Shown here: piece after piece, positions 1 to 56,868 of the stretch | How positions within the stretch are numbered: position 1 is the stretch's first letter | Layout: every line of letters starts with the position of its first letter | Assembly (NCBI GenBank): GCA_002189035.1 | Contig: CM007989.1 | Coordinates: 1,550,001-1,614,000, forward strand | Direction: 5' to 3' | Origin: Utricularia gibba | Taxonomy: Eukaryota; Streptophyta; Magnoliopsida; Lamiales; Lentibulariaceae | Length of the DNA: 64,000 bases | Translations under genes and position numbers: made by a program | Notes under the pieces: model-generated | Told to the model about the DNA's origin: nothing | Databases searched by the model: none | Seen by the model: the letters and a program-made list of their open reading frames with translations, nothing else

Positions 1-1118
1 AAGGAGAAGATGGACTCCAAAGATGGCTCTGGGTGGTGGAAGTTTTGCACTATCTCCATGACTTGAGTGGCTCCATGACTACTGAAGCTCTGTTCCACGT
101 TCCCTTCACCGACGAAATGCGACTGAATTTGAAGTATCTCAGAGACATCACCATCCTCGCTAGCAACGAATCGAAGCCATTCAGCTTTCCAGGATCGCAG
201 TTCTTGCCATCTAAAACAAAGACGAAGGCGAAGCAGATGGAGAAGCATGTCAGAGAATCGTTCATGAAGATCATCAATCAACGGATTAAAGATAGGAAAG
301 CGAACAGCAACACGGAAGAAGTAGAAGAAGACTTGCTTGATCTTTTCCTTGATGAATTGTATCATGAACCCGGGAAGAAGCTGAGCGCCAGAGAAGAGAA
401 GAGGATCCTGGAGGAAGCCATGGCTCAGTGCAAAGTTTTTAGTTTTGCGGGTTTGGACACCACATCGACACTGGTGGTATGGACGATGATCAGTCTCGCT
501 ATTCATCAGGACTGGCAGGCTCGTGCTAGAGAAGAGGTCATCAGTGTCGTCGGAGATCAGAAGAATTTAACCAGCGATATTCTCGGACGGCTAAAAATCG
601 TAACTTTAACCAACTTTTCTCCTCTGTGTATGCTGGCCCAATGCTTTGGAAGGTGGCTTACTTGTCTGAGTCTGTTTGGCAGGTGACAATGGTTTTGAAT
701 GAAGTGCTCCGCCTTTATCCGGCGACGATGGAGCTTTCGCGGGTGGCGGAGGAGGATTTCCAGCTGGGGAGCCTCCTAATTCCAAAGGGCGTCTTGGTAC
801 AGATTCCGATCGCCCTTCTCCACCGGCGAACTGACATCTGGGGCAGCGACGCAAATGAGTTCCGGCCGGAGAGGTTCGCGGACGGCGTGATGAAAGCGAC
901 CAACGGATATGGGGCGGCGGCTTTCATGCCGTTCAGCTTTGGCCCCAGGGTCTGCATCGGCCAGAACTTCGCACTTCTGGAAGCGAAAGTGTTCGTAGCG
1001 CAGCTGCTGCGGACCTTCACCTTCGAGCTCGGCCCGGCTACAAGCACGCGCCTTGCGCCGACTTCATGGTCCACCCCAGCACGGTGCGCCGCTGCTGCTC
1101 CGAAGGATCTCGACTTGA
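1..1118 (+). CDS. Cytochrome P450, CYP72 clan, 3' part (5' end outside window)
   Basis: C-terminal two thirds of a microsomal haem monooxygenase; the substrate cannot be told. Visible in order: the FPGSQFLPSK segment, the I-helix oxygen-binding motif AGLDTTST (around 450), the K-helix ExxR in EVLRLYP, the FRPERF meander, and the haem loop FSFGPRVCIG with the thiolate Cys near 954. One intron, about 600-682 (GT-AG), joins LKI to VTMVLNEV. As it stands the frame is broken. Near 37 the reading moves from one frame (DSKDGSGW) to another (VEVLHYL). Near 1036 and 1074 two more single-base losses separate FELGP, YKHAPCADFMVHP and QHGAPLLLRRIST. With all three, the expected stop is the TGA at 1116-1118; the uncorrected frame runs to 1147. 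Family membership is certain. Whether the gene is functional depends on whether the shifts are real. Confidence 0.85.
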
Positions 1119-2019
1119 TCCCATCTTGCTTCTCAATTCAAATCTAGTGGTCGTAAAGCTTCTGTTTTCTGCTCTCATCTTTGTTTAGTTTAAAATTTAA
1201 TTTTTAAAAAAAAAAATTAGTAGAATTGCCAAAAATTTCAACTTTAATTTGTATACTTTCATTAATGAAAATACACAAAATATTATGCTATTAGTATTGA
1301 ATATACTAATAGAAGATGTCATCACTAATATGCTTTTAAAAGAGGGGAACCTCACGTGCGCTATCACGCATTGGACACGTCATTCTCAACTAGAATATGA
1401 CACGTGTTTGAATATGGTGTGGTTGAATGATCAAGAAACGCGGTGCGACATCGAACAGCAGGAGTGCAAAATCGAAACCAAGGCATGAAATGCTTGTAGG
1501 AGGAAGGGGACTTGGGATAGATACGATGATCTCTCGGTTGTTAACTCCTCTTACAAGAGGAAAAGAGAAAGAAAAGGGTGCAGATGTGGACAAGAAACGC
1601 CTGTGAGCAGCAGCATCACAAGAATACAAACTGTTGTGATGGCGATGGACTTTTAGGTAATTTTCATAGGCGCGTGCGTGGCTCGGAGTGTATGGCTTCC
1701 CTAGAAGGCGGGATTATATTTAGGGCCTTCTATTTGCTGCTCCTGCTGCTGTTCATTCCCTTTTTTCTGGGTTCGGTTGTTTTTGCTTGTGAGGCGCAGG
1801 TATGGAGACTGATTTACTGTTGGATTTCTCTGTAATGTTTAATGTTTGGGACGAGGAAATGAAATGGGTTGAAGCCATCCCATGTACAGGAGGAATATGG
1901 GATTCCGTTGTTGTTTTTTCCTCTGTTTTAGACTTTTCTTTGCGCAATTCTAGAATCTTCATCTTCCCGTGAAGCCAGAGTCTCCTTCTTTCATGGGTAT
2001 GTATTAATATATTCTAGAT
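1119..2019. other. Intergenic; promoter-like sequence for the following gene
   Basis: No convincing ORF. Two CACGTG G-box/ABRE cores lie at 1353-1358 and 1401-1406, with an ACGT core between them. From about 1804 the sequence is the left arm of the tandem duplication described below and reappears near 7286. Confidence 0.5.
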
Positions 2020-3760
2020 ATGCTGGCGGCTAGGTTGTGCTGCTCGGTTGCTGTAGGGTTTTCGAAAGTGAATAGATCTTCCTCAACGTGCACCGCGAAG
2101 ATGGAGAAGAATCTGAATCTTGGCCCAACAAAACTGGAGTACTACAATGATATGTTCAAGCTCAAATCTTCGGCTTCTCTCCTCTCTTCGTTCCTGGTCA
2201 GTTTCGATCTACTTTTTTCTCATCATAAATGGATGCTGGGTGCGTCTTAACACGGCAATATTGGGGGATTTTTTTTGGGGTGAAGAACGACGGTGGGAGG
2301 CAGACTATGGTGTTGGATTCCACAATCTTCCATCCTCAAGGCGGAGGCCAACCATCGGACATGGGTACCATCAAATCTCCTGATTCGGTCACCAACTTCG
2401 TTGTTGAGGATGTTCGTCTCAAGGACAAAATTGTATGTGTATCTTGAATCTGGACGTGCTAATTTTTTTTTTTTTTATCAGTCAGTGTGTCCCCCTTTTT
2501 TTTATCTTTGATTCTTTGTCAACATAGGTGTATCACTATGGTCATTTTGAGGGTTCGGAGACAGTTGAGAAAGGAGCCGAAGTTCTTTTATCGGTGGATC
2601 CAGATAGAAGAAGACTGAATTCCCGGTATGTCAATATACAGAGGTCTATGTTGCACCTTGAAATGATATCCAAAGTTAGTTACTTTCCGCTCTTTCCTTG
2701 TACATTCCCCCAACTTCCAGTTTACATTCTGCTGGGCATTTGCTTGATGTCTGTGTGAGAAACGTGGGATGGGATCACTTGGAACCAACGAAAGGCTACC
2801 ACTTTCCGGATGGGTATGGCCTTCTTATCCTTCATGGTAGTGTATCATATGTTCCCCTCTATCGTTTGTGTGCAGTATCGATGTTCATTCATTGCTCCTC
2901 TTAGCGGGTTATTTGGTTCAATTTTCAATATTCTCAACAGTGGAAAGTAGATCTCCTATCTTTAAACTTGAAGGGAGTTTGTGCCTCCATTCTAGGAACT
3001 TTTGTCCCAATTCATTGATTTCGAACAGGCAGAGCTTTTCGGTTTTCATGTGACTCTATGTGACATTTCACAAATTCCAGGCCCTATGTAGAGTACAAAG
3101 GTACAGTCCCACAGAACGAACTGCAGGCCAAGCAAAAGGAATTGGAGTTGGAAGCCAATAGGTTGATCTCTGAAGGAGGAGATGTATGCTCTCTTCACCC
3201 TCTACAAATGCTAGTCTGCACTATGGTAACTGTTCCTTTCGTCTTCCAGGTATCTGTATCCATTCTACCATATGACATAGCTTCCCAGCGCTGTGGTGGA
3301 TGCCTTCCAGAATACATTCCAAGGTCGGACATGGCTCCCATATGATCCTCTGTCTACTTCTAATTTTCAGAGAGTTTATATCTACGCTTACATTCGAAAT
3401 TTCAGAATTAGAACCAACACAACAAACACTTCCTAATTCTTTAAACATTCATTTGGGTTCATGTATATTGTCACTACAGCTACATTTTGCCATTCATGTT
3501 CTTTGTTTCAGGATAGCGAACCCCGCATCGTCCAACTCGGCGACAGCCCGGGATGCCCTTGTGGTGGTACACACGTCAGCAACGTCTCTGAGATTTCAAG
3601 CTTCAAGGTATGATCACATCATCCATGGTGTTACACATCACTTGCCTCCTCCAGACGCATGAAACCAGAGCTGATCTCTGCTTTTTTTTTTTTTCTCCCT
3701 CAGGTTTCTCAGATTCGAACCAAGAAGGGACTCACCAAAATCTTCTACAACATTCAGTAA
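2020..3760 (+). CDS. Alanyl-tRNA editing protein, AlaX type (trans-editing hydrolase)
   Basis: Stand-alone relative of the alanyl-tRNA synthetase editing domain, expected to hydrolyse mis-charged Ser/Gly-tRNA(Ala). Eight exons: 2101(or 2020)-2196, 2286-2432, 2528-2625, 2721-2813, 3081-3183, 3250-3323, about 3512/3517-3607 and 3704-3760. Motifs: FHPQGGGQPSD, the zinc-ligand HSAGH (exon 4), and the second zinc motif GCPCGGTHV (exon 7). Two in-frame starts: ATG 2020 adds 27 residues (MLAARLCCSV...) that could be a targeting peptide; ATG 2101 (MEKNLNLGPTK) gives the core enzyme. The exon 6/7 join is awkward. Using the strong acceptor at 3511 puts exon 7 one base out of frame, so either one A is missing near 3322 or a weaker acceptor ending at 3516 is used. 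Otherwise intact, and the source copy of the truncated paralogue at 7.5-8.1 kb. Confidence 0.88.
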
Positions 3761-5091
3761 CCTTCTCCAACTCTATTTCTGGTCTTTGAGAATGCAGACT
3801 TTGAACTCGTGCATGTATTGATGGCCACGGAATATTCGTAATCCCGTGACGCCCCCTGCTGTGTTATGTTTTGAATTTCCGTTACCACATCGGAGCTGTG
3901 CACCCCACAACTTATAATCATTGAATCTAATCCAAATGAATTTCGGATTTTAATATTGTGCAGTACTATTCATCTTGATTTTAAAGTCGTGAGACACGAT
4001 TAAGATAGCATTTTATGGAACTTTTTATTAAAAATATAAAATGTTTTTGAAATATTTGTGATTAAGTATAAAAAGTTATTTGATATTAGATTATTAATAT
4101 GTTTAAGTATAATGTAATTGAATATATATATATATATTAATTATATATGATATTTAATATTCAAGAATATAAATTTGAGTATATAAGTTATATAGATATA
4201 TAATTAATTTTTAATTTGAGTATATGAATGATATATTTATATAAAATTAACATATGCATATTAATTAATCAAACCATAATTTATATGTAAAATTGAATAT
4301 GAATATTTTATATTACATCATTACTATCAAACAGAATTTAAATTGTTTTAAACACACGCAAGGAATGGCATTTATGAGTAGCAGCATCCCATATTTGACT
4401 TTTAAAACTGAATTTCCGGATACAGAAAATATCCTTATTTTGAGTTTAGCCGACTCTTCAAGTTCAAGTTCCCTTTCCCTACTGGTGTTGTGGGCCCACG
4501 CCATAAAACTGCGGCGAGTCATCCTTTGTTGACCGTTGACGGCTCGGCTCGGCTGGCACGCTCGCGTTGACTGACGAGCCCCGACTCCGAGTCCGGGCTA
4601 GCAAGGCATGGTGCGTTGACGTGGGTGGTGGGCTCATCTTCCACCCACGTCAAGAGAGGTGACAGTTGCCACCTCGCGCTTCGAGGAAATTAAGGTGAGC
4701 ATGATCTGCAACACACTAGGTTTTATTTGTCCCCAAATTGAGATTGGGTCGAATTTGATTGTCATTTTGATTCGCCACCGCTTCTTTATTTGGGATGCCA
4801 AAAGTGTCTCTTCATGCTCGGGAGGACTTTCTCGAATTCTCCCGATATTTCTTTGACTAGATGGCCCATTAGGGTGGGTGCATTCAATGTGAACCGTCGA
4901 CTACGGAATTTTTGACAATTCGTATGCTACTCCAATGGCAAGTCGACACGTTGCTACCAGACCAACCCAGCATATGAACACCCACATAGACGAGAAGGTG
5001 TTCAGTCTTCTTGTTCGTCTTATATATATTTACTCACTCGCTGCTACTTCCAGATTCATACACAAGTAGAAAAAAACTTCAGGCATCGGAG
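3761..5091. promoter_or_regulatory. AT-rich spacer and SWEET promoter A with W-box cluster
   Basis: 3761-4330 is AT-rich and featureless. From about 4529 there are four TTGAC W-box cores (4529, 4536, 4567, 4616), bound by WRKY factors in other plants, followed by CCACC/CACGTCA-like boxes near 4640-4675. A TATA element (CTTATATATATT) lies near 5018-5029, about 70 bp before the SWEET ATG. The same arrangement recurs upstream of the second SWEET gene. Confidence 0.55.
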
Positions 5092-6242
5092 ATGGAGAGA
5101 TCCACCGCGCATTTCGCATTCGGAGTTCTGGGTCAGTGTTTTTACTACCTTCTCTGTTTTTGTTTTCTTGTTCTGTACTTTCCCTCTCATCCTTTTCCTT
5201 TCAATGTGGCAGGGAACATTTTTGGGATGCTCTTATTCCTGGCGCCGATGTAAGTTTTATGGATACCGGTTCGACCGCCGGAGCTTGTAATTGATCTGTG
5301 TGTGTAATTGATGCAGGATTACGTTCAGGAGGATTGTGAAGAACCGATCCACTGAGAACTTCTCTGGGATTCCATATACCATGACCCTACTCACATGCTT
5401 GCTCTCCACATGGTACGTTTTTACAAGAAAATTCCCAATGTGAGCCTCAGGGAGTGCGAAAGATTGCGAGTCAGCCTGGATAAGTCCAGTCTCAAATGTT
5501 TTTTGTGTTCCGACGGGTGATAGGTATGGACTGCCGTTCGTGTCGCCAAACAACATTCTCGTGTCGACGATCAACGGGTGCGGGATGGTTCTGGAATCCA
5601 TCTACGTGATCCTGTTCCTGGTATTCGCCCCTAAGAAGGAGAAGGCGAAGATTCTTGCGTTGCTGGCTCTGGTTCTGGCGATGTTCGCAGCCATCGCGAT
5701 GGTGTCCATCCTGGCTCTTCGTGACAACGCGAGAAGGCAGTTCTGTGGCGTTGTGAACACACTGTTCTCCACGTTGATGTACGCCTCGCCATTGACGATC
5801 ATTGTGAGTCCAAAAACCACTTCTCCCTCACCATAAACACAAATCATTCTGACAAAATGTTTTCATGCAGACGTTGGTTATCAAAACGAAGAGCGTCGAG
5901 TTCATGCCTTTCTTCCTCTCCTTCTTCATGTTCTTGTGCACCACCTCGTGGTTCATCTTCGGCCTCCTGGGGAACGACCCTTTTGTATACGTAAGCAAAA
6001 AAAGAACACTTGCCTCTCTCTGCGCTGGAACTTCCATTACAGAAGTGCTTTTCCTGTTGCAGATTCAAAGTGGGATTGGATGCGGACTAAGCATCGTCCA
6101 GCTGCTATTGTACGCCGTATACCACAAGAACAAAGGCGGTGACAAAAGCTGTAACCAAGAAGCTTCTGCAGAGAAGGGGGAGGGCACCTGGAGGCCCCTG
6201 GAGGAGAAGCCGACTGCGACGAAAACACCTCCGCAGGCTTAA
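5092..6242 (+). CDS. SWEET1: SWEET sugar transporter, clade I (SWEET1-like), copy A
   Basis: Seven-helix sugar uniporter with two MtN3/saliva triple-helix repeats, expected at the plasma membrane and carrying hexoses. Six exons: 5092-5131, 5213-5249, 5317-5412, 5524-5803, 5871-5990, 6063-6242; phases all close and give 250 aa. First repeat: [57 protein letters not shown]. Second repeat: [60 protein letters not shown]. The cytosolic tail (about 36 residues) is Lys/Glu rich. Substitution is by the clade I pattern (STINGx[12 protein letters not shown]); the exact substrate is not readable. All introns are GT-AG. The start has TATA support, and the second copy uses the same start. Confidence 0.95.
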
Positions 6243-7480
6243 TCGGAAGCAGCCACCACACATTAATTCTCAATTCCACACTACCCGACGAGATAAGTCT
6301 CTTGTTGTCTGGGTGCAAAAACCTGTGACGCTCGTTCTCCCATTCTTTTCTTCAAGAAACCATTGCTTTCTTAAATAATCGACGCTGAACCCAATAGTTT
6401 ACTACAAAAAAAAGTGCATACTATTTAAAATTATTATTAAATTATAAATTAAGATTATTAATTTAATAATATTAACAAAATAATATATAGATAATCATGA
6501 CACGGCTAATCAGGAATCCTACTATCAATGTCCATCAACCAAGATATTGATCATAATTATACATCCACTCCTTCAATAGCATCTCAATAAATTGATACAG
6601 ATAATAAATATATTAAAATGTTAATTTTTCTCAAAAATTACTTTTCTAAAAATTATAGAAGTATGACCAAAACTGATTAAATTCATATGCGTTTTTTTAT
6701 TAAATTCATTTATATTTTATGTAAATATGATTAAAATGGTTTCATTTTTTATATATGTGTTTATAGTATATTATTTATAATAATTAATAATAAAACGTTA
6801 TTTATACACTTTATATTTGTAATATTTAATTCATAAATTATATATGTATAATTTAAATAATTAATTTTATATGTATACAATATTTATTTATTAGTTCGAT
6901 TTTGCATTTGTAAAAATAATATCAATTTAAGTTTTCATGTTGTACTAAAAAAGATATATTATTTGGGAATAAATTAAACATGCGTACACTCCAAAGGACT
7001 CCGCGTTAATTATTTCCGAGTCTTCGCCAGCATTGACCGTACTAAATAAAAAATATTGGAAAAATAATCAGAATAAAAAACCATAAGATTTAGATGAATA
7101 TGAAATCCGAAGGATGTGATTGACTGAGAATAAGTAGTTGAGTCGGTGGCGTGCTGGGAATTTTCTACGACACGTGGGCTCATGATGGTGTAGCCCGCCT
7201 CCGACTCGCCACGTGCTAAATGGTCGCTCGAAATGGCACGAGGCCCAAATTGGGAAATAAATTTTTTTATTAGGCAATTTTTAGAGGAGACTTATTTACT
7301 GTTGGTTTTCTCTGTAATGTTAAAATGTTTGGGACAAGGAAATCAAAATGGGTTGATGGCTGAAGCCATCCACATACGGGAATATGGGATTCCGTTGTGT
7401 TTTTCTTCTGTTGTAGACTTTTCTTAGTGCAATTCTAGAGTCTCCTTCTTTCATGGGTAATGTATTAATATATTCCAGAT
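6243..7480. other. AT-rich spacer within and at the end of duplication copy A
   Basis: No coding potential. A block near 6505-6625 has a close match near 11490-11610 (copy B). A G-box-containing block near 7140-7215 (ACACGTGGGCT, CCACGTGCT) matches one near 12490-12560. The junction to copy B is near 7286; from there to 7480 is the duplicated AlaX leader. Confidence 0.5.
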
Positions 7481-8103
7481 ATGCAGGCGGCTAGGTTATG
7501 CTGCTCGGTTACTGTAGGGTTTTCTAAAGCGTATAGATCTTCCTCAACGTGCACCGCGAAGATGGAGAAGAATCTGAATCTTGGCCCAGCAAAACAGGAG
7601 TACTACAATGATACTTATCCCCTCTCTTCGTTCCTGGTCAGTTTCGATCTTAATTTTTCCTCATCTTAAATGTATTAGAACAAATAATAAAGCATTGGGA
7701 CTTATATTAAAATAATCAAATATATAATAAATCATAAATCATTAATGATTTTTTGTATCTAATATTTTTTAATATAATTCATGTTTCTTATGTAAATAGG
7801 ATTCACATATGATCAACTATTCATTAAATCTTTAATTTCAACTTGATATCAGAGTGTTTGCATCACAACATGACTTTGGTGACCAAAATATGTTTCGTAA
7901 TAGTCTAAGTTTCAACTAAAAAATAATAAGATGTATTGAATTTAGACGAAAAAAGTAGATAGATCTATGATCCAGGTGTACCGTGTTGAGTAACGCATGA
8001 ACGCAGAGCTGATCTCTGCTTTTTTTTTTTTTTTTTTCTCCCTCAGGTTTCTCAGATTCGAACCAAGAAGGGACTCACTAAAATCTTCTACAACATTCAG
8101 TAA
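7481..8103 (+). pseudogene. AlaX-type editing protein, truncated duplicate
   Basis: Keeps the leader and exon 1 (7481-7646: MQAARLCCSVTVGFSKAYRS..., then MEKNLNLGPAKQEYYND) and the final exon (8047-8103: VSQIRTKKGLTKIFYNIQ, TAA). Exons 2-7 are missing, including the HxxxH and Cys-x-Cys zinc sites, and the FKLKSSAS part of exon 1 is also deleted. A different 330-bp sequence sits where exons 2-7 should be. It cannot encode an editing enzyme. Confidence 0.9.
7677..8000 (+). mobile_element. Retroelement-like insertion or relic inside the AlaX pseudogene
   Basis: This stretch is absent from copy A and interrupts the pseudogene. It has an AT-rich leader of about 170 bp followed by TTGATATCAGAG (7842-7853), close to the primer-binding site used by retroelements primed with initiator Met-tRNA (TGGTATCAGAGC). 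A diverged relative lies at 15570-15725. There is no coding capacity. The boundaries are approximate. Confidence 0.4.
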
Positions 8104-9756
8104 CCTTCTCCACCTCCGTTTCTCTTCTTTGAGAACGCAAACTTTGAACTCGTGCATGTATGTTACCACATCGGAGCAGTGCACCCCACAACTTAATAGG
8201 TCTAACGCTGGCTGGTTCAGTCACCGATTTTAATACATTATTCAATGCTTTTTATCATTCTTGATTTTAGAGTTGAATGACATGATTAAGGCACAATTTG
8301 ATATAATTTTTTGAAAATTAATTTTTAGAAGTTTGTTCTTTTTTGAAAAATTAGATGTTGAGATTGTACAGTTCATAAAAAATAACAAATATTTCTACAT
8401 TTTTTTAAAGTAACATCAATTTATATTTAATAAAAAAATCGTTATACTATCCTTTAAATCTGAGAAATAAATGATTTTAAAAAAATGCGTGTGTATTTTA
8501 TTAAAAAATATTATTTAATATGTGATTTATGTAGAATTGTACAATTATATTTATATAAGGGTGTTTTATAATATAATATATAAAATTTATACCCAAATTT
8601 ACATATAAACTGTTATTTGATTAATTAACAATGTATGACAGTCTTATCTATACCACTTACATATTTATTTTTTAAATATATGGATTGTATACATAAATGA
8701 ATTGGAATCTAATTATATTTATACTATTTACATACTCAAATTTTTATTTATATATATATATAATTGAGTGTATATAAATAAATAAATATTTATTTATTTA
8801 TTTAAACATATTAATACTCTATTATCAAACGACATTTATGTAATATGATCATAATATTAATAATAGGTAATTGGAGAACAAAATTTCAAAATATAAAAAA
8901 AATTATACAATCTGATTAAATAAACCCATATAATTAATATGTTTGTGCTTCACTCACAAATCGAGAATCAAATGAAAAATTATTCGCATATATAATATAT
9001 AATACCAAAGATTATTATTTAACATGAAATGTTACCAAAGGAGCCCTTACTTGTCGGCTTAAATAGAATGTAGGCATGAAGTTGGTAATTATGTACAAAA
9101 GACTATTATTATTGTGCGGCTAATATCTAATTGCATTATTGAGAGTGGCGTCCCAAAATGACCAGATTCCTACGTAACCCTAACCTCCACGTTGCTGCAT
9201 CTTGAAACCTTAATTTTGTACCTAACCTTCGAAATTAACCTCCCCTACTTTAGTGGGCACGTTCACGGCTTGCCGCGGCTCGCACAACCACGTTGACTGA
9301 CGATTCCGGAGTCCTGGCTAGCGAGACGTGGCGCGTTGACTTGGGTGGTGGGCTCGTCTTCCACGTCATGAGAGGTGTCAGTTGCCACCTCGCTTTTCCA
9401 GGAAATTAGGGTGAGCATGATCTGCAACACACTGGGTTTTATTTGTCACAAAATTAGGGTTTGGTCGAATTTGATTTTCATTTTGATTCGCCACCGCTTC
9501 TTTATTTGGGATGCCAAAAGTGTCTCGTCATGCTCCTGAGTTTCTGAAGTTGTCCATATATTTCTTTGACTAGGTGGCCATTAGGGTGGGGCATTCATAC
9601 AATGCCAGTCGACACATTGCTACCACACCCACCCAGGGGTACGAACACCCGCTCACAGGAGAGAAGGCCTTCATTCTTCTTGTTCGTCTTATATATATTT
9701 ACTCACTCGCTGCTACTTCCAGATTCATACAGAAGCGGAAACTTCAGGCATCAGAG
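8104..9756. promoter_or_regulatory. AT-rich spacer and SWEET promoter B
   Basis: 8240-9050 is strongly AT-rich without genes. 9290-9420 retains the promoter block of copy A, with TTGACT W-boxes at 9293 and 9336, and CTTATATATATT (about 9688-9699) forms the TATA box. Compared with copy A, one of the four W-box positions and its neighbour are lost. Confidence 0.5.
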
Positions 9757-10952
9757 ATGGAGGGATCCACCCCACATTTCGCATTCGGAGTTCTGGGTCA
9801 GTGTTTTTACTACCTTCTCTGTGTTTGTTTTCTTGTTTTTACTTTCCCTCTCATCCTTTCCTTTCACTGTGGCAGGGAACATTTTTGGGATGCTCTTGTT
9901 CCTGGCGCCGACGTAAGTTTTATGGATACGGGTTCGAGCGCCGGAGCTTGTAATTGATCTGTGTTTGTAATTGATGTAGGATTACGTTCAGGAGGATTGT
10001 GAAGAACCGATCCACTGAGAGCTTCTCTGGGATTCCATATACCATGACAATACTCGCATGCTTGCTCTCCACATGGTATGTTTTTTAGAAGAAAATTTCC
10101 AATGTGAGCCCCAGGGAGTGCGAAAGATTGAGTTTCAGAAGAGCTAGCCTGAACAAGTCAAGTCTCAAATGTTTTCTGTTCCGACGGGTGATAGGTATGG
10201 ACTGCCCTTCGTGTCGTCGAACAACATACTCGTGTCGACGATCAACGGGTGCGGGATGGTTCTGGAATCCATCTACGTGATCCTGTTCCTGGTATTCGCC
10301 CCCAGGAAGGAGAAGGCGAGGATTCTTGCGTTGCTGGCTCTGGTGCTGGCGGTGTTCGCAGCCATCGCGTTGGTGTCCATCCTGGCTCTTCATGACAACG
10401 CGAGGAGGCACTTCTGCGGCGTTGTGAACACACTATTCAACACGTTGATGTATGCCTCACCATTGACGATCATTGCGAGTTCAAAAAACACTTCTCCCTC
10501 ACCATAAACACAAATCATTCTTCCCTTGTGAACCAGCGTTAACTCTTACAAACTGTTTTCATGCAGACGTTGGTTATCAAAACGAAGAGCGTCGAGTTCA
10601 TGCCTTTCTTCCTCTCCTTCTTCATGTTCTCATGCACCACCTCGTGGTTCATCTTTGGCCTCCTGGGGAACGACCCTTTTGTATACGTAAGCCAATAAGA
10701 ATAAAAAAATAAAAAGAACACTTGCCTCTCTCTGCTTGAACTTCCATTACACAAATGCTTTTCCTGTTGCAGATTCAAAGCGGGATTGGGTGCGGACTAA
10801 GTGTCGTCCAGCTTCTATTGTACGCCATATACCACAAGAACAAAGGCGGTGACAAAAGCTGTAACCAAGAAGCTTCTGCAGAGAAGGGGGAGGGCACCTG
10901 GAGGCCCCTGGAGGAGAATCCGACTGCGACGAAAACACCTCCGCAGGCTTAA
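9757..10952 (+). CDS. SWEET1: SWEET sugar transporter, clade I (SWEET1-like), copy B
   Basis: Tandem paralogue of the gene at 5.1 kb with the same six-exon structure: 9757-9796, 9876-9912, 9980-10075, 10195-10474, 10567-10686, 10773-10952; 250 aa. Changes are scattered and mostly mild (FLAPM to FLAPT, STENF to STESF, FVSPNN to FVSSNN, LRDNARRQF to [14 protein letters not shown] to FSCTT), and the frame is fully open, which suggests it is still under constraint. Oddity: the donor after exon 4 reads ATT|GCGAGT where copy A has ATT|GTGAGT. This intron would have to be spliced as a GC-AG intron; failure would read into the intron after [11 protein letters not shown] and truncate the second repeat. 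Confidence 0.92.
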
Positions 10953-13476: not shown

Positions 13477-14933
13477 ATGGCGCAGCACGTGGTCCTTGTT
13501 GCATTCCCACTTTACGGCCACATCAACCCTACGATGGAGCTCGCAAAGCGCCTTATGCGCATCGGGGTTGAGGTCACCTTCGTCACCAGCGTTGCCACCC
13601 GCCGCCGTGTCGAGAAATTTGTCTCTGCCTCCCAGAAGTACGGTTTCTCCTGCTTCGCAGCCTACTTCTCCGACGGCTTCGATGACGGATACAAGCTAAC
13701 CGACGACCTCACGAAGCTCCTCGACGGGTTGAAGTCAGCCGGCGCCGCGACTTTGAGAGACGTCATTGTCGCCGCCGCGGAGCTGAACCGGCCGGTCAGC
13801 TACATGGTCGCCACGCCGTTTCTCCCTTGGGCGGCGGACGTGGCGCGTGGTTTCAATATCCCGGCGGCGTTGCTCTGGACTCAGCCGGCGGCGGTTCTCG
13901 GTACTTACTACCACTATTTCAATGGCTTCGCCGATGAGGTCTCCAGAAAGTATGATGACCCAAAATGGAAACTTCAGCTGCCGGGGTATCCGTACGCGTG
14001 GCCAGCAGAGATCTTCCGACGTTCTTGCTTCCTTCCTGCGATGAAGCCACGGTAACGCAAGTCTACAAGGAGCAAATCGAATATCTGGATAATAAAACGG
14101 TTTCCAAAATACTTGTCAACACTTTTGATGCGCTGGAGCACGGGCTTTTGGAAGCCGGCTTCGGGAAATACGAAATGATCGGCATCGGACCTCTGGTCTC
14201 CGACGCTTTCCTTAAGAAGAATACAGAGGAGGTATTGATTAATTCCCCGCGTTTTTAGATCATCTAATCCGGATTATTTCTCCCATTCTAATCCCTGAAT
14301 TCTCTGCAGGTGGACGATGAATGCCTGCGATGGCTGAACACGAAGCCCAACTCCTCCGTCGTTTTCGTCTGCTTCGGCAGCCTGGTGGCGCTCCCGAAGC
14401 CGCAGATGGAGGAGATCGCCAAGGGATTACTGAAATCGAAGCGCCCCTTCTTGTGGGTTATCCGGGAAGAAGAGAGCAGCAAGGCTATGAAGAAGTTGAT
14501 AGGAGAAGTCGAAGAGAGCTTCGGAAAAATCATTCCCTGGTGCTCGCAGCTCCACGTCCTCAGCCACCCCGCGCTGGGCTGCTTCGTTACGCACTGCGGC
14601 TGGAACTCTACCTTGGAGAGCTTGTGCTGCGGCGTCCCGACGGTGGCCTTCCCCTCGTGGGGCGAGCAAGGAATGAACGCCATGATGATAGCGGAGGCGT
14701 GGAAAACTGGAGTCAGAGTGAGAGCAAACGATGAGGTAGGCGGAGAATTGACCGTCGACAGCGAGGAGATATTCCGATGCATCGAACAAGTGATGGACGG
14801 AGGGGAAGCCGGCAGGGAACTGAGGCACAACGTCCATAAATGGAAGGTATTGGCTCGTGAAGCCATGGCAGAGGTGCATGGTACTTCTTACACAAATCTG
14901 CGTGAATTATTCGCGGCTCATGGGACTCAATAG
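13477..14933 (+). CDS. UDP-glycosyltransferase, family 1 (UGT75-like, group L)
   Basis: Cytosolic enzyme transferring a sugar from UDP-sugar to a small molecule. The catalytic His is in FPLYGHINP (residue 15). The PSPG box runs from WCSQLHVLSHPALGCF through HCGWNSTLESL and ends GEQ; the final Gln suits UDP-glucose. One intron, 14232-14309 (GT-AG). The N-terminal SRDLPTFLLPS-type segment and overall pattern resemble UGT75 enzymes (flavonoid, ABA and hormone glucosylation), but the acceptor cannot be read. The frame breaks in the GGGG run at 13983-13986: KWKLQLPG lies in one frame and SVRVASRDLPTFLLPS in the next. One missing G explains it. Everything before and after is well conserved, so a recent lesion or a consensus error is likely. 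Confidence 0.88.
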
Positions 14934-14966
14934 ATAATTTATTACAGACGATTGATGTACCATGTG

Positions 14967-18900: not shown

Positions 18901-18959
18901 GGAGAGACATCGTCCTCATCGTCATCGCCGGCGAGTCGTTGGTGTCCGGTGACGGCCAT
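15929..18959 (-). CDS. Oligopeptide transporter (OPT family)
   Basis: Multi-pass plasma-membrane proton-coupled transporter of short peptides or metal-peptide conjugates. Six exons read on the minus strand: 18959-18465, 18063-17966, 17807-17244, 17205-16929, 16850-16668, 16549-15929. All phases close, giving 745 aa, the usual length for plant OPT proteins. Visible signatures: acidic N-terminus with [24 protein letters not shown] split by helices, [15 protein letters not shown], the [14 protein letters not shown] family motif in exon 5, and the C-terminal [21 protein letters not shown] followed by Cys residues. Intron 1 (18064-18464) is AT-rich. It belongs to the peptide branch of OPT rather than the Yellow Stripe-Like branch. 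Substrate specificity is not visible. Confidence 0.94.
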
Positions 18960-19481
18960 TTTGATGGGAAGACTGAGGAGGAAACAATTGACGCCTTGCC
19001 ACTCCTTATTGGTTAGAGTGAGCTATCGGGTACATAAAAATAATACCCATAACTAGAGGGGTGTGTATGCAAATAACGTAGTTACCAATGAGGGACCATA
19101 CTTTCACCATCGAGAATTCCTGTGGCTGGGAAGAGATGATGTGTTGGTTGTCCAAGTGGCTAGATTGAAACTAGGGATGTGGTCCAAATGCAAGGTGTAG
19201 GATTTATGAATTTGTCCGAGGGAAGTGGACTTTGACATTTTTTCACTCAGATCTACCAGGAAAGATATTCTGTCAAGAGTTCTGGGGGCAGGACAATGCA
19301 AGCTTCATTAGTTTATCCCTTGCAAGTGGACAGAATTGTGCAACAATGAGTTAAAAATGCAGTGAAATAAGTCAATGCATGATCAGGTGTATTACAAAAT
19401 TGTGTATACCAATGAATAGTGGGAGCAATACAAAGAATCGGCATGGATGATGCAGACAAACATGGAATAGTTGCTAGGAAG
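18960..19481. other. Spacer between the transporter start and the 3' end of the reductase gene
   Basis: No gene seen. It must hold the transporter promoter (reading leftward) and the 3' UTR of the next minus-strand gene. Confidence 0.5.
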
Positions 19482-21527
19482 TTAAGAGACTGTCCTCTTG
19501 CTCTTTTCTAGCTTTGTGCGTACCTTTTCTTCCAGCTGGGAGATGAGGGTATCCAGGCTGAATATTCTGTTCAGGGCGTTCATGTTTTCAAGTGTCTCGT
19601 TGAGGGACTGAGGGTCGGCTTTGTCGCAACGCAGGTGCTGCATTGGACCGTGCAGGAGCTTGTTCACAATCCCATTGCTGAGATCGTAGATGGCCTTCTT
19701 CTGTTTATCAGGGATGTCACTGCCGAGTTTAGCCAGGCATTTTTCGACCTCAGAAGTCCTGATTCTTTCTGCATAAGCCCTCAGCTTCTTGATTGTTGGA
19801 ACAGCTTCGAGAGAATACTTCCAAGCTTCGAATTGCTCCACTTCTTCTGCTATGATCGCTTCAGCTTCCTTGGCTTTCTGAAAACGGTCCTCTGCGTTGG
19901 CAGCGACTACTTCTTTCAAATCATCAACATTGTAGAGTTGGATGCCCTCGATTTCGGCCACGGATGGTGCCACATTACGAGGAACAGAGATATCGACGAA
20001 TAGCCTTGGTGAAGAGGGGAGGGCCTGAACTTGTTCTTCTGTGAAGAGGAGAGATTCTGATGCAGTACATGTGAAGATAACATCGGCTTCTGCAGAAGAT
20101 GCATGCATTTCCGAGAGAGGCCTATATTCTATTTCAACATCCTTCAGCTCCTCACGTATGGATGCAACTCTGTCCTCTGTTCTATTCACAACAACCATCT
20201 TTCTGAAACCCTTGGCAACCAAATGTTTGATAACCAGTTTTCCCATCTTACCAGCTCCAATGACCAACATTCTCGAAGACTCACGGCTCACCTCTGGAAG
20301 TTTCATCAAGGCAAGCTCTACAGCAGCAGAACTAACAGATACTGATCCAGTGGAGATACTGGTTTCTGTTCTCACTCGTTTTCCACTGTAATTGCTTGCT
20401 TGAAGAGCCCGCCGATTTTACGATCAAACCCCGGCACTCCTTGTCCTGCTTTAACAACTTGCTTTACCTGTGCAAGAATCTGACCTTCGCCCAGAACCAG
20501 GGAATCAAGCCCAGAAGCTACTTCAAAGAGGTGTTGCGTTGCATCCTTGTTGTAGAGGAAGAATCTGTGCTTAGATAACTCAGAGACTGGTACCGAGCTT
20601 CTCTGCCAACATTGACATCAAAATCAACAACAGCTTTGGGAAATTGCTCATTGCAAAATCTTTCATAACCAGCTTTTTTTTTTATGGGAATCATTCTGTT
20701 AAACTAGTGATCTCTAAGCCTATTAACATGAAGACATTTTCATGCAATGGGGAAACTTTTTCCTAGTCTACTATCCACAACACCGATTTGTAGTAATCCA
20801 AGCAGAGTAATGTTTAACTTTGATAGCAGATTGTCAAAAAAGTAAGTACCTTTGACATCCATTCAGTAACTTCTTTAACTCCGCGATGTTGTGACAGAGC
20901 AACAACATATATCTCCATCCGGTTGCAAGTGCTAAGAACTGCTGCCTCCTCTATATGATTCAAATCACATAGTTCTTCAATCACCTTTGGCCACTGTGCT
21001 TCTTCTATTGCAATTTTCTCACGTATATCGATTGGAGCGGTTCGATAGTTCAATCCTATCACTACAATGCTACTACTTTCCCTGGTGTAACCTGAAAGGA
21101 AACAAAACAAACAACCTTGATTTCATTACAACCCATAAACAACTTTCCAAATTCCAATCCACCATCGAACTAAGTTCACATTAAATACATCCTGCAATTA
21201 ATAACATGAAATGTGCATCATACAAACGAAAAATCTCGTCACAGAATTAAAAAACATACGATCGGCACCGGAGGCTTTGAGAAACTCCAAGGCGGAAATA
21301 CTCGACGACTTGGTCTCAGCATCGGTAGCATGATCAGAAACTTCACATCTAGGACTCGATTTCAAAACACTATAATTTAATTCATAAGGCCCTTTCCCCC
21401 TCTTCCGGGGGAAACAAACCGAATAAGGTTTGCTGCCGCGGGAATGAATCCCCGGGTTGATCTCCATCTTCGCATTGCAATTAGAACGTGAAAAACACGC
21501 CGCGAATCCAATCTCCGTCGCCGCCAT
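19482..21527 (-). CDS. HEMA1: Glutamyl-tRNA reductase, chloroplastic
   Basis: First committed enzyme of plastid tetrapyrrole synthesis: NADPH-dependent reduction of Glu-tRNA(Glu) to glutamate-1-semialdehyde. Three exons: 21527-21260, 21091-20850, 20602-19482. Start chosen at ATG 21527 (good accATGG context, transit-peptide-like [15 protein letters not shown]) rather than an ATG 39 nt upstream. Catalytic Cys in [10 protein letters not shown] (exon 2); NADPH-binding [36 protein letters not shown]-terminal dimerisation region. Expected length 543 aa. Exon 3 carries a frameshift at 20383-20384: KQAITVG and KRVRTETS are in different frames because one G is missing, giving an immediate TGA. Everything else is intact. 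A TATATA box lies near 21575. Whether this is HEMA1 or a paralogue is not decidable. Confidence 0.9.
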
Positions 21528-22228
21528 GGTGGTACCGGTCCGTTTCGCCGGCCGTGTGGCGACCACGGCGGAGTATATATTGCGATCGAAAGAGTTGAAA
21601 AGTAGGTGTGCAAACCAAATTAGAAGTCAGAAGAGAAAACGTGTGTTCGGTACACCCGCACCCGCCACACCTGCTATCGAAGAAATTCTGACGACTTCGA
21701 TAATTAGGAAATGTGAAATTGAATTTTGAGGGATAGACCAGTCGACGTACGTCGGCTGCGGCCCGGTCCAGCCGCAAGCCCGGCCTGGCCCGACACTGCC
21801 CAGTCATTGTCTTTGTCATGGACCGTATCTTGTGACTCAACGGGCCTGAGCCGGTCCGACTGTTTTCTTACCGAGCTTGAGCTTTTCGGTCTGACTCATG
21901 GGCCAGGCTGTGTGCCCTAGAGGGCCGTCTAGTGTCCAATTTGAGTAGATGATGTCTGAAATTAGGGCAATAATTGGGCTTCACCCAAAAATAGAATCTA
22001 ACTGGCCCAATAACTAAATATTGGTTAGTAATAATACGTACATTTTCTTGAATTTAAAAATCAGTAACCCGATCTTCTTTGTCGTAAGTTGAGGCTGTGA
22101 TGCAATATGCCATTACAGAATCTTCTCGTGGTTTGTAGAAGGTCAACTATATCTCTCTTGCGATTATCTCCCGAGGGTGCTGTCTGTTTTTTAAGGGCGC
22201 GGGGAGGAGTTCTTCGTTTCGGAAGAGC
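21528..22228. promoter_or_regulatory. Divergent intergenic region between the reductase and MSRB genes
   Basis: About 700 bp between two outward-facing starts. TATATA near 21575 serves the minus-strand gene. A short ORF (22107-22337, MPLQNLLVVCRRS...) is in a different frame from the MSRB start and is probably leader sequence. Confidence 0.5.
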
Positions 22229-32320: not shown

Positions 32321-33453
32321 CTACTTGTCTTGTGAAAACCAACCAAGCTGCACACAAAGGAGTGAAACAAATTATGAATGAATTCTCATTGCACAGGAAG
32401 TTTATTTTGGTAGCATCTAATACCTTACCTTCCAAGCATACATGCCGAAGAATGCTACTGTGTCTGCAGACCAAACAGCTGCAAATGATTTCCAAAAGAA
32501 TGGAATTGTGACATTCAGTAATGGGATGAGCAGGAAAAGGTAATTCAGAGCTTCCTTCTCATTCTTTGAACAGTCCCGAGCTCGAAGAGATGGAATAGCT
32601 GAAACAAACCGACACCTTTTCATCAGACATACGCAAGAGGTAACCAAGAATAAAGGGACAATAGAATCCGTCAACAGTGCAGCAACATCCAAGCACATTC
32701 TTGACATCCTAGTTTTAATATTGGTTCAAAATCCCACGTTCAAAGGAAAAAAAAAATTTGTCAGGCAAGAACAAATCATCTGATTTCCGGGTAAATAGGA
32801 GCAGCAAATGGTGAGGAGTAGTTACTGAACATCCAAATGGACCACATGCCCATCAATCTCCAAATGTCTGGTTCATTCGAGGGAAATATGAGATTAAAAG
32901 AGAGAGCTCCTCCCAACAACAAAGAAGCGTATCCCTGAACTTCAAACACGGTGTACAAAGCAGTTCCCGGTTGAGCAGGATTTTTTGTTGCGGTCGAAGC
33001 TCTCGGCGCAAAAGTTGCAGCAGTCTTCTGGACCACCTGTTTCAAAAGAACGATTCGCGAAAACAACAATCCAATCATTCATTCACATGCACGAAGACGA
33101 ACAGAGAAACTCGAACTGCACAAAAGGAAAAACCTTTTTGAGATCCTTTTCAACTGAAGGTGACCCAACTGGAAACTTGAGATTTTCCTTTTCTTGAAGA
33201 GAATCTTCAGGCCCTTGTTCTACACTCGTTTCCAGCTCATTGGAACTCGCTCGGACTCTGATTGCAGCGCCTCTGCGGATGAATATGAAGGGAACCCTTG
33301 GATTTGGGTGCTGCAGAGAAGCGCCGAGGGTAACGCGCTCATGATTCTTCAACAGCACTGCGAATGGGGATTGTGTGGATTTTTCCAGAGTACCTCCTCC
33401 CCAATTTCCTACAACTGAAACGGATAACCGCTGGACCGAGGCCGGTGCCACAT
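32321..33453 (-). CDS. Plastid thylakoid membrane protein, DUF1118/RIQ-like
   Basis: Four exons: about 33453-33134, 33036-32826, 32598-32429, 32347-32321; about 242 aa. N-terminus is a likely transit peptide; then APGTALYTVFEVQGY-like sequence in exon 2 (PGTALYTVFEVQGYAS), LSFNLIFPSNEPDIWRLMG, TIPSLRARDCSKNEKEALN and FLLIPLLNVTIPFFWKSFA, finishing LGWFSQDK. The arrangement recalls plant DUF1118 proteins (RIQ1/RIQ2, grana proteins affecting light harvesting and non-photochemical quenching); identified by memory of motifs. The start is odd: the open frame begins with GTG at 33451 just inside the out-of-frame ATG at 33453. One missing G there would give M-V-A-P-A-S. Confidence 0.7.
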
Positions 33454-34223: not shown

Positions 34224-34604
34224 ATGGCTTCTTCCAAGATGCTGGTCTTTGTGAGCATACTCTTCGCCATGGCCCTCCTATCCTCCGGGAAGCCTACGCC
34301 GCCGCATCTACTGACGCGGGTATGGATGCGCATGCCCTGAGTTGCACACTTTTACGCACATATAATGAATGCTTTCTCGTTGCTCATGTCTCTGCTTGTT
34401 CTGTGCTCAGGCGAAGTTGACCAGTTCCCATGGTTCGGATGCCGCTGGTACCGGTGTTTCGGATACGGATTTGGGTGTTTCCAGTGCTGTCACGAACGCT
34501 ACTTCTTCTTTGGAGCCCGCCGGAGATGTCGCCGGTGCTGTGTCGCATACTCAAACGCGGCTTTTGAATCTCAAAAAACCAGCCCAAGAACTGATGCACC
34601 ATGA
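34224..34604 (+). CDS. Secreted 8-cysteine peptide, GRP/nodulin-like C-terminal domain (member 2)
   Basis: Paralogue of the gene at 31.5 kb. Exon 1 34224-34319 (MASSKMLVFVSILFAMALLSS...) is a signal peptide. Exon 2 34411-34604 has eight cysteines, C-x4-C-x6-C-x2-C-C-x12-C-x2-C-C, amid aromatic and Arg residues (WYRCFGYGFGCFQCC, RRRCRRCC). The intron is phase 1 at the same place as in member 1. Exon 1 is one base short: after LLSS the open frame runs to a stop, while one extra G in the run at 34287-34289 gives a normal cleavage region (EAYAAAST) in phase with exon 2, for a 96-aa product against 95 in member 1. That match in length and phase supports a base-level error rather than a dead gene. 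Confidence 0.65.
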
Positions 34605-40310: not shown

Positions 40311-41669
40311 ATGGCCGGGAGCAATGAAATTAGCATCAGTGAATCGAAGGTCCAGCAGATGCCCTGCATTTGAGTTTGGGGGTCTTCTTTCTTCCTGCTG
40401 TAGTTTTGGGATCTGGGTTCTTGATTTGGGTGCTTGTTGTGTTGTTGACCTGATTTGGGTGCTTCTGTGCAGTGTGTTTGGCCTTTTAGGGATTGTTCAT
40501 CTTGTTTCCTCGGTTCTTTGCTTCTTCTAGATACAATTCCTTCGTGCGTTTTTTATTCTGTTTCTGTGTCCTCTGTGTCTCCGATTTTTGATTTTGCTGC
40601 TTCTGAAAACGATGCATCGTTTGTGTGAAGTGTTTCCGTCAACCGTCTTCTTGAATTGATTTTGTCTGCCTGCAGAGAATAGTGCCTCTCAACACTTGGA
40701 TACTGATATCCAATTTCAAGCTCGCGTACAACATGCTCCGGCGACCGGACGGCACTTTCAACCGCGAATTGAGCGAGTTTCTTGACCGGAAGGTCCCTGC
40801 AAACGCTTTGCCGGTAGATGGGGTTTACTCCTTCGATGTGGTTGACCGATCTTCGTGTTTAATCAACCGCGTTTATCTTTCGTCGTCGCCGGAAAACCCG
40901 TCGAAATGGGGGTCGTGGAGCTGGAGAAGCCTCTGAGCGCGACGGAGATTGTGCCGGTGATTATATTTTTCCACGGCGGAAGCTTCGTTCATTCCTCCGT
41001 CAACAGCGCGATCTACGACACCTTGTGCCGCCGCCTCGTCAGATCCTGCAGAGCCGCGGTTGTGTCCGTTAACTACCGCCGCTCGCCGGAGCACAGATGC
41101 CCGCTCCGTACGACGACGGCTGGGCCGCCCTCAAATGGGTACACTCCCGATCGTGGCTACGAAGTGGGAACGACTCCAAAGTTCACGTTTATCTAGCCGG
41201 CGACAGCTCTGGCGGCAACATTGCTCATCACGTTGCTGTACGAGCGGCGGAGGAGGGAATCGAAGTCCTCGGAAACATCCTTCTTCACCCCCTGTTCGGC
41301 GGCGAGGAGCGAACGGAGTCGGAAAAACAACTGGACGGCAAATTCTTCGTCAGAATCCAGGACCGCGATTGGTATTGGAGAGCTTACTTGCCGGAAGGAG
41401 AAAACAGAGATCATCCCGCCTGCAATGTCTTCGGACCCCGGTGCCGGAAACTCCAGGGCGTTGCGAATTTTCCGAAAAGCCTCGTCGTGGTGGCCGGCTT
41501 GGATCTTCTACAAGACTGGCAACTCCGATATGTCCAAGGTCTGAGAAACTCCGGCCAACGAGTGAAGCTCCTTTACTTGGAAAAAGCCACCATCGGATTC
41601 TACTTCATGCCCAACAACGACTATTTCCCCTGTCTCATGAACCAGATCACAGACTTCATTCATGCTTAA
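40311..41669 (+). CDS. GID1: Gibberellin receptor, GID1-like
   Basis: Soluble nuclear gibberellin receptor derived from the hormone-sensitive-lipase fold; GA binding closes the N-terminal lid and recruits DELLA proteins. Exon 1 40311-40349 (MAGSNEISISESK), intron 40350-40675 at the position typical of GID1 genes, exon 2 to 41669. Visible: N-terminal lid NTWILISNFKLAYNMLRRPDG split over the start of exon 2, HGGSF oxyanion motif, GDSSGGN nucleophile elbow, GLDLLQDWQ with the Asp, and ATIGFY where lipases have the catalytic His, the change that marks receptors. Two single-base losses break the frame: in the GGGGG run at 40908-40912 (KWG to VELEKP) and near 41100-41103 (HRCP to PYDDGW). Both flanks match the family exactly, so the protein is probably intact in the organism. 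Confidence 0.92.
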
Positions 41670-42184: not shown

Positions 42185-44578
42185 ATGGGGGCACCCACGC
42201 CGCTGGTTTCTGACTCCGGCGCGGCGGCGAAGTCAGAGCTTACCAGATCCGCGGCGAAGCAACAGCAGATTTCTTTGTTGGATTTCATTTTGTCTGCTCT
42301 GAGAAAATCGATGGTGTCTACTTGTCGATTGGACGACAGAGAGGATCACGGAGTGATTTCTGCCGTCCGTCAGATGGAAATTGGGTGGCCCACTAACGTC
42401 CAGCACATAACCCATGTCACATTTGACAGGTTCCATGGATTCCTGGGGCTTCCTGTTGAGTTTGAGGTCGAGATCCCATGTAAAGCTCCTAGCGCAAGGT
42501 ATGTTCAATCCCCAGATCGTCGTTTTTCTGTTTTTTGCTTTGAGTTTCCATGCAATGGCATGAATTTCTGTGAAGTTAAGTTTAATGGAAATCTGGGTCT
42601 TCCTCTCCGAACTCCCAAGAAAAGAGACCTGCGCTTTATGTTAATTCAAAGCTGTAGACACAAAGTCCTGGGACTTTTTAGATGCTTTTCCCCTTTCTTA
42701 AAGTGAGCATATTCTGAAGGGGATACTTCCTTTCCATGGTAGAGGATCTAAGAGGCTGTTTTTCTAAAATACAAAAAAGCATCTGCTGCTTTAACTTGAA
42801 TTCTCAGACAATTCATCAAAAAAAAAAAAGGAAACCAATGTATGCCTCTTTGCAAAACCATGAGCCATGTAGTTGAAAGATGAATTGGTGGCTAGCCCTT
42901 TTAGTGCTAGATGAAAGCATTTGTTCATAGAACAGAGGCCATCATGATGATATTTTAGAGAGTAGATACCTGACTGGTGCCTTTCCTTTTCACCGATTGA
43001 AGTTCTTGACTATCCACAGCGTTCATCAACTGCTCTATAGACTAAAAGGGTAGGTGTCATTAGACGTCGGCTTACTTGGGACCAAACATTAAAACATGGA
43101 GGCTGAGGTCATACTTTCTAACTCCTTGCTGGTCCACAAGCATCGGAATGAAGAATCTTTGCTCACCTTGATTGGTAGCCTGGAAACTTGATAGTGGTAG
43201 TTTGAGGTGACTTGGCTTCACTAAATTTGTATTTTCTGCTTGCTGAAGCCGAAGCAGCACAGGCATTCCTCAGTAGAGCTGTCAAGTCCTTCACGTACTC
43301 CACTGCAACTGTAGTGCTAATTCATATGTAGTATAAAAAAAATTAGATGAAAACTAGAAGTAGCAGTTGAGGTGGCAAACACCGGGTAAAAAGAATGCAC
43401 TCCAAGTGTTGGTCGGAATAGTAGATCTATTTTGAGGGTAATCTTGAGAGCTGATATTTTGGTTTCATTGTGCTTCCTTTGATCTGTTTCAGCGTCAGTG
43501 TGTTTGGGGTCTCTCCAGAGTCGATGCAGTGCTCCTACGACTCAAAGGGCAACAGTGTTCCAACCATTCTGATGCTAATGCAGGAGAGGTTGTACTCACA
43601 AGGAGGCTTGAAGGTGAGTTCGTTAAGCACCAAGGAGGTGAAGCCCTTCTCTTTTTTTGATGCTTGATTCCTGAGCTGCGCTCGTTGTCTCTGCAGTCAG
43701 AGGGGATTTTTCGGATAAATCCAGAGAACGGCCAAGAGGAACGTGTACGGGACCAGCTCAACAGTGGCATTGTGCCCCAAGACATAGATGTCCATTGTTT
43801 GGCCGGTTTGATCAAAGCCTGGTTCCGGGAGCTGCCATCTGGTGTTCTGGACGGCCTGTCTCCTGAACAGGTTCTGCAATGCGATACTGAGGAGAAATCC
43901 ATGGAGCTCATCAAGCAGCTGAAACCGATGGAAGGTGCTCTTCTGAGCTGGGCTGTCAATCTCATGGCAGATGTGGTGGAGGAGGAGGAGGCCAACAAGA
44001 TGAATGCAAGGAATATTGCTATGGTGTTTGCCCCTAACATGACTCAGGTTCCAGCGAGTTCCTTGGATGAGATAGAATCAGTACTCATTGATTGGCTGTT
44101 GGCTCGGCTCACTCGTTCTGCCGTTTGGTTTGCAGATGTCTGATCCTTAACAGCTCTCATGCACGCAGTGCAAGTTATGAACTTGCTGAAAATGCTGATC
44201 ATGAAGGCTCTCCGGGAAAGGGAAGGATACTCTAATCAGTCATCCTGTTCATCAGGTGCACCGAGCGACGTGGAATACGACAAGAAGCAAGAGATGGAGG
44301 AGATCAGCTGTGAATCAGCTGGGCCAGCCTCGGAGAAGGATGAGCAAGAAGAGTGCAGCAGCAGGGACCATGGCGAGTCTCTGAGTGACATCGAAGAGAG
44401 ATTCCTGAGCCAACTGGATGACGACGACAATTCAAAAAATGGGTTCCGTCGACAGCTTGAAGGCATCCTGTGCAAAGACAATGCAAGTCCTCCAACTGCT
44501 TCTGCAACTATGAATCCCGAGTCCTCTTGCCTTTCTTTATCTGATAGCAGAAAGGGAGGTTCATTTCTCTGTAGGTGA
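42185..44578 (+). CDS. Rho GTPase-activating protein with CRIB motif (RopGAP)
   Basis: Switches off plant ROP GTPases at the plasma membrane. Exons 42185-42498, 43493-43613, 43697-44047, 44136-44578; about 409 aa. CRIB: IGWPTNVQHITHVTFDRF. GAP domain: arginine finger in EGIFRIN (exon 3), HCLAGLIKAWFRELP, NKMNARNIAMVFAPNMTQ. C-terminus is acidic and Ser-rich (GESLSDIEERFLSQL). Exon 4 starts MSDP, but a T is missing from the run at 44147-44148, so the frame reaches TAA immediately; restoring one base joins to LMHAVQVMNLLKMLI, as expected for the family. Intron 1 is about 1 kb. The neighbouring GID1-like gene is on the same strand and separately promoted. Confidence 0.9.
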
Positions 44579-54995: not shown

Positions 54996-56089
54996 GCCGA
55001 CGCCGGCCAAAGCCACACAATGTGAAGGAAGACTGTGGGGTTTTGGGTTCAGGCGTCCAGCTTCGATGGGGCGTTTACTTATATAGGGAGGGAATTCCAG
55101 GTTTCGATTCAACTCTTCCGTGCTACGATCGCTGTGCAGGAGGAACAGGTATTTCAAGACAGAATAGCAGGGTGCATGTATTGGAAACCAGCTGAAAAGC
55201 ACTTTATGTCACAGCGACATGTAAGTGAGATATGGCAGTAGAACAAGTTGAAAAAATGATGAGGAGGAACTTGTTCCTTCTACCGACTTTTTAGCAAATT
55301 CTTAACACAACCATTTTCAGCCGTTGTATGATTTTGTTTCATCTCATGAACAAAACAAAACGGCGGCTGTCAATTATCTCGCAAGATTCTTACAAGAATC
55401 CGCATGTCAAGGATAGATGGAATCTAGAAATTTTCCAGAGGATCTTAGCCCCAAGTTGATCGCATTAGAAAAAGAAATTATAACACAAAAATATTCGATA
55501 TGATAAGATCCACGAATTTTTTCGACAGAAGATCAGATTAGATGAAATGTAGACTACAAGCAGCTGAAACGTGACCGTGGCTTTGTATTTGTGGCGATTG
55601 ATGTTCTTGCGAGCAAGCTTAAAGAGGTTAGTGGATGCGGGGAATATGCGCGATTCCGGAAAGATAAGGCCTCTAGAACCGAACATGTGCCTCCCTGCGC
55701 CTGGTGGGCTTCATTCTCGAACAGATGCCTGATTTGAATGAAACCAGGGAAGAGGAGGACACCAACTGCACCATGTTTCATTACCATCTTCCCTGTATTT
55801 ACATGTCGCCGGAGTGAGTATCAATGCTGGGATTTGCAGACTGGGCTCTGTGATCCGGTTCAGCAGACCTGCGGTTCTGGTTGTAGCTTGAAGCATACAA
55901 AGTAATATTTGCTTTGGTGAGCTTATTTTATGTCTGAAAGCATAGGAACCACTCAATGGGGATGCTTGCGTTGCCAACTGGTTCACGTTCTGAGAAGTAT
56001 GGGGTCCGCAGGAAGGAATAGCCATTTCGCGTTATCTTCACAACTGCGGACGCCATTTCATTCTCAACTCGAGTCCTCTTTCTTGCGCC
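54996..56089. promoter_or_regulatory. Divergent intergenic region between glutaredoxin and NdhT genes
   Basis: About 1.1 kb between outward-facing starts. A minus-strand TATATAAGT near 55075-55085 serves the glutaredoxin. No gene called; the minus ORF at 55711-56025 has no features. Confidence 0.45.
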
Positions 56090-56868
56090 ATGGCTGCACC
56101 AGCGGCACCTTCCTTATTTTCACCAACAGCCAGCGCCACCAGACTAGGGAGAATTGGAACAGCAAGGTTTGGTGCGGTTCGTGTGTCGGCTGAGCGAGGT
56201 GGTGGCTCCGGTAACGATGGGGGCGGCAGAGGGCGCCTCCGGGGGTGGACACAAGGATTCATTGGGAGAGTGAGGATGAGGGATGGATAGGGGAAGGATC
56301 ATCACAGGACAAGTTCAGGGAGTTGCTAGGAGAAGGATTATCTGACTCGCTTGATAGCTCTACAGATTCTTACTACCGGTACTGACTGCAGGTTGAATGG
56401 AATTAGATCATGGGTTCCAATACTCACATGAAATAATGTTCATGCTTAAGGTTTCTGGGAGTATCCACAAACGCTGATCTGGAAGAGATCAAGGCAGCGT
56501 ACCGTAGACTATCCAAGGAATATCATCCTGACACGACGACACTTCCTCTGAAAACTGCTTCAGAGAAGTTCATGAAACTAAGGGAAATCTACAATGTCCT
56601 ATGCGATGATGAGAAGAGAAAGTTCTACGACTGGACTCTGATGCAGGAGGTAGCAAGCAGGGAAGCAGAGAAACTGAGGATGAAGCTTGAAGATCCCTAC
56701 ATGAAGGAAGTGGAGAACTGGGTATCAGTTCCTGATATGGTTGATCGTCTGGGCGGAAGGAATATGGAGCTGAATGATCAAGCCAAACAAGCCCTTACCT
56801 TCGATGTTTTGGTCATTCTAGTCTCTATGTGTTGTATAGCATATGTAATCTTCTTTAAACAAACATAA
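56090..56868 (+). CDS. ndhT: Chloroplast NDH complex subunit T (J-domain protein, NdhT/CRRJ)
   Basis: Nuclear-encoded, membrane-anchored J-like subunit of the plastid NAD(P)H dehydrogenase complex used in cyclic electron flow. Exons 56090-56378 and 56451-56868. Transit peptide MAAPAAPSLFSPTASATRLG; conserved PPGVDTRIHWESEDEGWIG; J-like domain VSTNADLEEIKAAYRRLSKE followed by HPD and SEKFMKLREIYNVL; MVDRLGGRNMEL; one C-terminal helix ending IFFKQT. The frame changes between GGGRG and APPGVDTRI at the GGG run 56231-56233: one missing G. Length and all other features match the family. Confidence 0.92.

Follow-up and report, generated by a model that had tools for sequence, protein, structure and literature searches.

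Frame breaks caused by single missing G or C bases in a plant genome assembly point to residual long-read consensus error

Results

Genes and one-base losses in the window

The stretch of DNA analysed here (the window; 64,000 nucleotides, C1:1550001-1614000) is part of a plant assembly of 100.09 Mb in 516 contigs, and carries genes for a P450, AlaX, a UGT, glutamyl-tRNA reductase (GluTR), an RIQ-like protein, a Cys-rich peptide, GID1, a RopGAP and an NdhT-like J-domain protein, each with one or more actual or suspected frame breaks (Table 1). The PacBio assembly of Utricularia gibba, NEEC01, comprises 518 contigs and 101 Mb (PMC6982007) and was made with HGAP, with a Quiver polish as the final step, at 88x (PMC5793159). 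From the similar size and contig number, we infer that the assembly analysed here is this PacBio-only Utricularia gibba assembly.

A sequence-only reading of the window had attributed at least ten frame breaks to one missing base each. Eight of the ten were confirmed against homologues in the same genome (three in the P450, two in GID1 and one each in the UGT, GluTR and RopGAP). The other two, in NdhT and the Cys-rich peptide, show a shift of the same sign as the remaining sites, seen from their own frames only. The GID1 copies on C321 and C98 are each one open frame, from which the window copy differs by exactly two one-base losses; once joined, the GID1 pieces match solved GID1 receptors over their whole length (PDB match). 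The missing RopGAP base is ambiguous and could be C or T. NdhT is present as a single copy in the genome, and only its J domain was matched when compared with solved structures. The closest paralogue of the window P450 lies on C402; an apparent upstream break in this paralogue proved to be an intron with no loss. The window P450 (about 190-200) does not have the intron found in the C402 paralogue at the FPG...FLPSKTK junction.

Table 1 Frame breaks and corrected sites in the window.
Feature	Position in window	Strand	Observation
P450 loss 1	31..33	+	GGG, one base short; alignment to C402 P450
P450 loss 2	1036..1037	+	GG, one base short; alignment to C402 P450
P450 loss 3	1074..1077	+	CCCC, one base short; alignment to C402 P450
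AlaX exon 6/7 junction	3321..3517	+	in-frame if acceptor at 3517 is used
UGT loss	13983..13986	+	GGGG, one base short; frame and the paralogues' conserved LPG...RDLP segment
GluTR loss	20383..20384	-	GG versus GGG in C317, C451 and C304 paralogues
RIQ-like protein	33290..33292	-	probable one-base loss in CCC, from transit-peptide frame
Cys-rich peptide	34287..34289	+	GGG, one base short; signal peptide frame only
GID1 loss 1	40908..40912	+	GGGGG, one base short; alignment to C321 and C98 GID1
GID1 loss 2	41100..41102	+	CCC, one base short; alignment to C321 and C98 GID1
RopGAP loss	44145..44148	+	CCTT after GATCC, one base short; alignment to C414 and C2 paralogues
NdhT-like J-domain protein	56219..56245	+	one base short within G-rich stretch; reading frames only

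Two further losses had been proposed as likely, and both required correction. For AlaX, a loss at about 3322 had been suggested; use of a splice acceptor 5 nt downstream (GATAG/CGAA at 3517) yields a protein that stays in frame and contains the GCPCGGTHV motif, in which the join reads ...LPEYIPSEPRIVQLGDSPGCPCGGTHV... If exon 6 joins exon 7 at this acceptor, AlaX needs no loss. For the RIQ-like gene, also single copy in the genome, a change of frame is indeed required, but the CCC run listed in Table 1 is a better fit than the position given (33451), which found no support.

The window also contains a tandem duplication with AlaX and a SWEET-type transporter (1901-3914 versus 7388-8195, and 4534-7157 versus 9260-12500), of which both SWEET copies look open and the second AlaX copy consists of fragments with an in-frame stop. 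Positions 15939-30537 form a syntenic homoeologous block with C317:121129-148569 in reverse orientation. The transporter, GluTR and ZAT-type zinc-finger genes are retained in this block, and much else is gone. A tRNA-Pro (CGG) gene lies at 28956-29028, with 72 bp identical on C317.

The same signature elsewhere in the assembly

Outside the window, a further 20 frame breaks were read out in GRAS, UGT, carboxylesterase, GluTR and transporter genes. Each of them (20/20) was a single missing G or C, and no clear gain was found among these 20. Events were found on C1, C2, C3, C4, C98, C142, C213, C244, C255, C317, C328, C375, C412, C414 and C480. The window-wide pattern of losses is real, but it is not window-specific and spans the whole assembly.

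A genome-wide search for GRAS genes gave 48 kb of matches with many split genes, the clean splits being net -1. Twelve GRAS breaks were read out as 12 single G/C losses, and several genes share a break at Gly-Gly-Pro-Pro codons, which call for a longer C or G run than is present. One GRAS split on C4 was an intron. The splits at C414:3444866, C3:261390 and C244:2105663 may be real pseudogenes or gains, and the genes at C414:3443952-3445017 and C244:2105347-2106219, which have in-frame stops or large gaps, may be real pseudogenes. Single G/C losses were likewise read in UGT paralogues on C3, C414 (two) and C4 and in carboxylesterases on C98 and C317.

Losses recurred at the same run in independent sequences: at the GRAS GGPP codons, at the UGT LPG run, which is broken in both the window UGT and a C414 paralogue, and at the GID1/CXE CCC run, where the break of the carboxylesterase (CXE) paralogue on C317 corresponds to the second GID1 loss. 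Such recurrence in paralogues would suit transcriptional or translational slippage, in which the DNA itself has the short run and the reading frame is recovered during expression. Against slippage count the remaining sites, unrelated short runs of two or three bases, and the intact paralogues whose codons at the position in question form no run; the longer run is also present in the DNA of one duplicate contig (see below). A shift site conserved across homologues, as in programmed frameshifting, was not found, and close paralogues (GID1, GluTR) are open without any shift. Slippage is scarcely credible as the explanation of these sites.

On C317, the GluTR homoeologue has a separate loss at 144351, in a different G run (seven G expected, six present), and the transporter beside it has a one-base loss at 147608, giving two losses in about 4.4 kb of syntenic genes. 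Split tables had hinted at a lower rate elsewhere than in the window, but the C317 syntenic genes show a similar loss density, and therefore no local excess is claimed. For the window together with the syntenic block and the controls that were read out, the density was ~1 loss per 2-3 kb of coding sequence; coordinate-only tables give a lower density because breaks near match ends escape them. A rate of ~1 loss per 2-8 kb of coding sequence exceeds the expectation for a well-polished 88x PacBio assembly, which speaks against consensus error.

Sign, base type and run length

That the breaks are all losses and often lie in G/C runs had been proposed for the window, and both observations extend to the controls. 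About 30 resolved events, controls included, were all losses, with three GRAS splits that could include a gain standing outside this tally. Every event in the window and controls whose base could be assigned was a G or C. None of these assignable events fell in an A/T run, though coding DNA contains more A/T than G/C runs (804 A/T versus 620 G/C coding runs of >=3 in the census). The chance of observing only losses is ~1e-9 if gains and losses are equally likely, and the chance of observing only G/C is ~1e-10 if base type followed the run census, where both values assume independent events and serve as a guide only. The homopolymer spectrum has few G/C runs of 7 compared with runs of 6 (37 to 3), while the A/T ratios do not fall, a difference that, seen in this one plant, is only suggestive.

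Selection on the broken genes

The broken genes could be true pseudogenes that decayed independently after whole-genome duplication, with intact paralogues doing the work. Paralogues do exist for GID1, GluTR, UGT, P450 and RopGAP, and NdhT could be lost along with the plastid ndh genes, whose loss is reported from terrestrial relatives. For GID1, dN/dS was 0.076 against C321 when calculated from own-frame pieces, with values alike before and after the first break, and dN to the C98 GID1 was 0.126 for the window copy, no higher than the 0.135 of the intact C321 copy. GluTR downstream of its break had a dN/dS of 0.127 against C317, and RopGAP a value of about 0.08. Relaxed selection (dN/dS towards 1) was not found in GID1, GluTR or RopGAP; all three are under purifying selection with no acceleration, and none has the look of a gene in decay.

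Furthermore, the verified window sites show one-base losses only; gains, stop codons and larger indels are absent from them. NdhT and RIQ each occur once in the genome, and both GluTR homoeologues are affected. The initial judgement that independent decay of so many genes is implausible was borne out, given the uniform lesions and the lack of relaxed constraint, and true pseudogenes are a very unlikely explanation.

Duplicate contigs disagree at G runs

The small contigs C316 (38 kb) and C376 (30 kb) duplicate parts of larger ones without substitutions. These pairs came from the GRAS and P450 searches, where they had equal scores and unequal open-frame lengths. Between C316 and C412, there were 0 substitutions over about 900 bp, and two runs in C316 were each a single G shorter, one of these losses interrupting a GRAS gene whose frame is open in C412. 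Between C376 and C413, there were 0 substitutions over about 1.1 kb, and C376 was without one G, where its P450 frame is broken; this pair differs further at a T9/T8 run in an intron. At the two twice-assembled loci (about 2 kb in total), the coding differences are thus missing Gs only, at three G runs, two of them frame-breaking. As the pairs were picked for their differing frames, they reveal what kind of error occurs and not its rate. Being redundant and free of substitutions, such copies could be used to measure the error rate of the assembly.

The disagreement between contigs of one locus also speaks against true pseudogenes. It bears equally on real deletions, either very recent or heterozygous, produced by a mutational tendency of this lineage towards shorter G/C runs. 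In favour of such deletions, Lentibulariaceae have been suggested to mutate at high rates and to have a deletion bias (PMC6982007), and the duplicate contigs could be haplotypes. Against this, there are zero substitutions between duplicates over about 2 kb, alleles that disrupt the frames of so many conserved genes would not last, and the same codon pair is affected in several GRAS genes. Real deletions of this kind are extremely unlikely. Overall, it is highly improbable that the short G/C runs are truly present in the plant DNA, whether with slippage restoring the frame or through lineage-wide contraction of G/C runs.

Discussion

Residual long-read consensus error, offered from the outset as the simpler explanation, gains support from the genome-wide signature, purifying selection and the discordance of duplicate contigs. 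The breaks are one-base deletions in homopolymer runs, spread over the whole assembly and recurrent, and the consensus of duplicated loci disagrees at such runs. Judged from sequence comparisons, the frame breaks are almost certainly an artefact of the long-read assembly and not biology, and the consensus is unpolished or under-polished. G/C runs would be called one base too short throughout the assembly, more often with growing run length, and raw reads would be expected to restore the missing bases. Since the duplicates show that the assembly systematically drops single G/C bases from short runs, the genes affected are in all likelihood intact in the plant.

The warning that automatic annotation would wrongly call pseudogenes here is justified, as the breaks match the assembly-wide G/C-loss artefact. 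Wherever G/C runs occur in coding sequence, this assembly will yield wrong gene models, pseudogene and gene-family counts and gene-loss claims, with GRAS, UGT, P450, GID1 and GluTR as demonstrated examples of affected genes. Claims of gene loss based on it need to be checked on reads first.

Similar errors are known from other assemblies. In bacterial long-read assemblies, indel errors are also mostly false deletions that are tied to homopolymers and fragment genes (PMC12007338). Those genomes are small, however, and had more errors in A/T runs, whereas all assignable losses found here are G/C. Re-assembly of a eukaryote likewise identified frameshifts in reference genes as assembly artefacts (PMC8445201), where the cause given is collapsed alleles, in contrast to the run-length miscalling proposed here.
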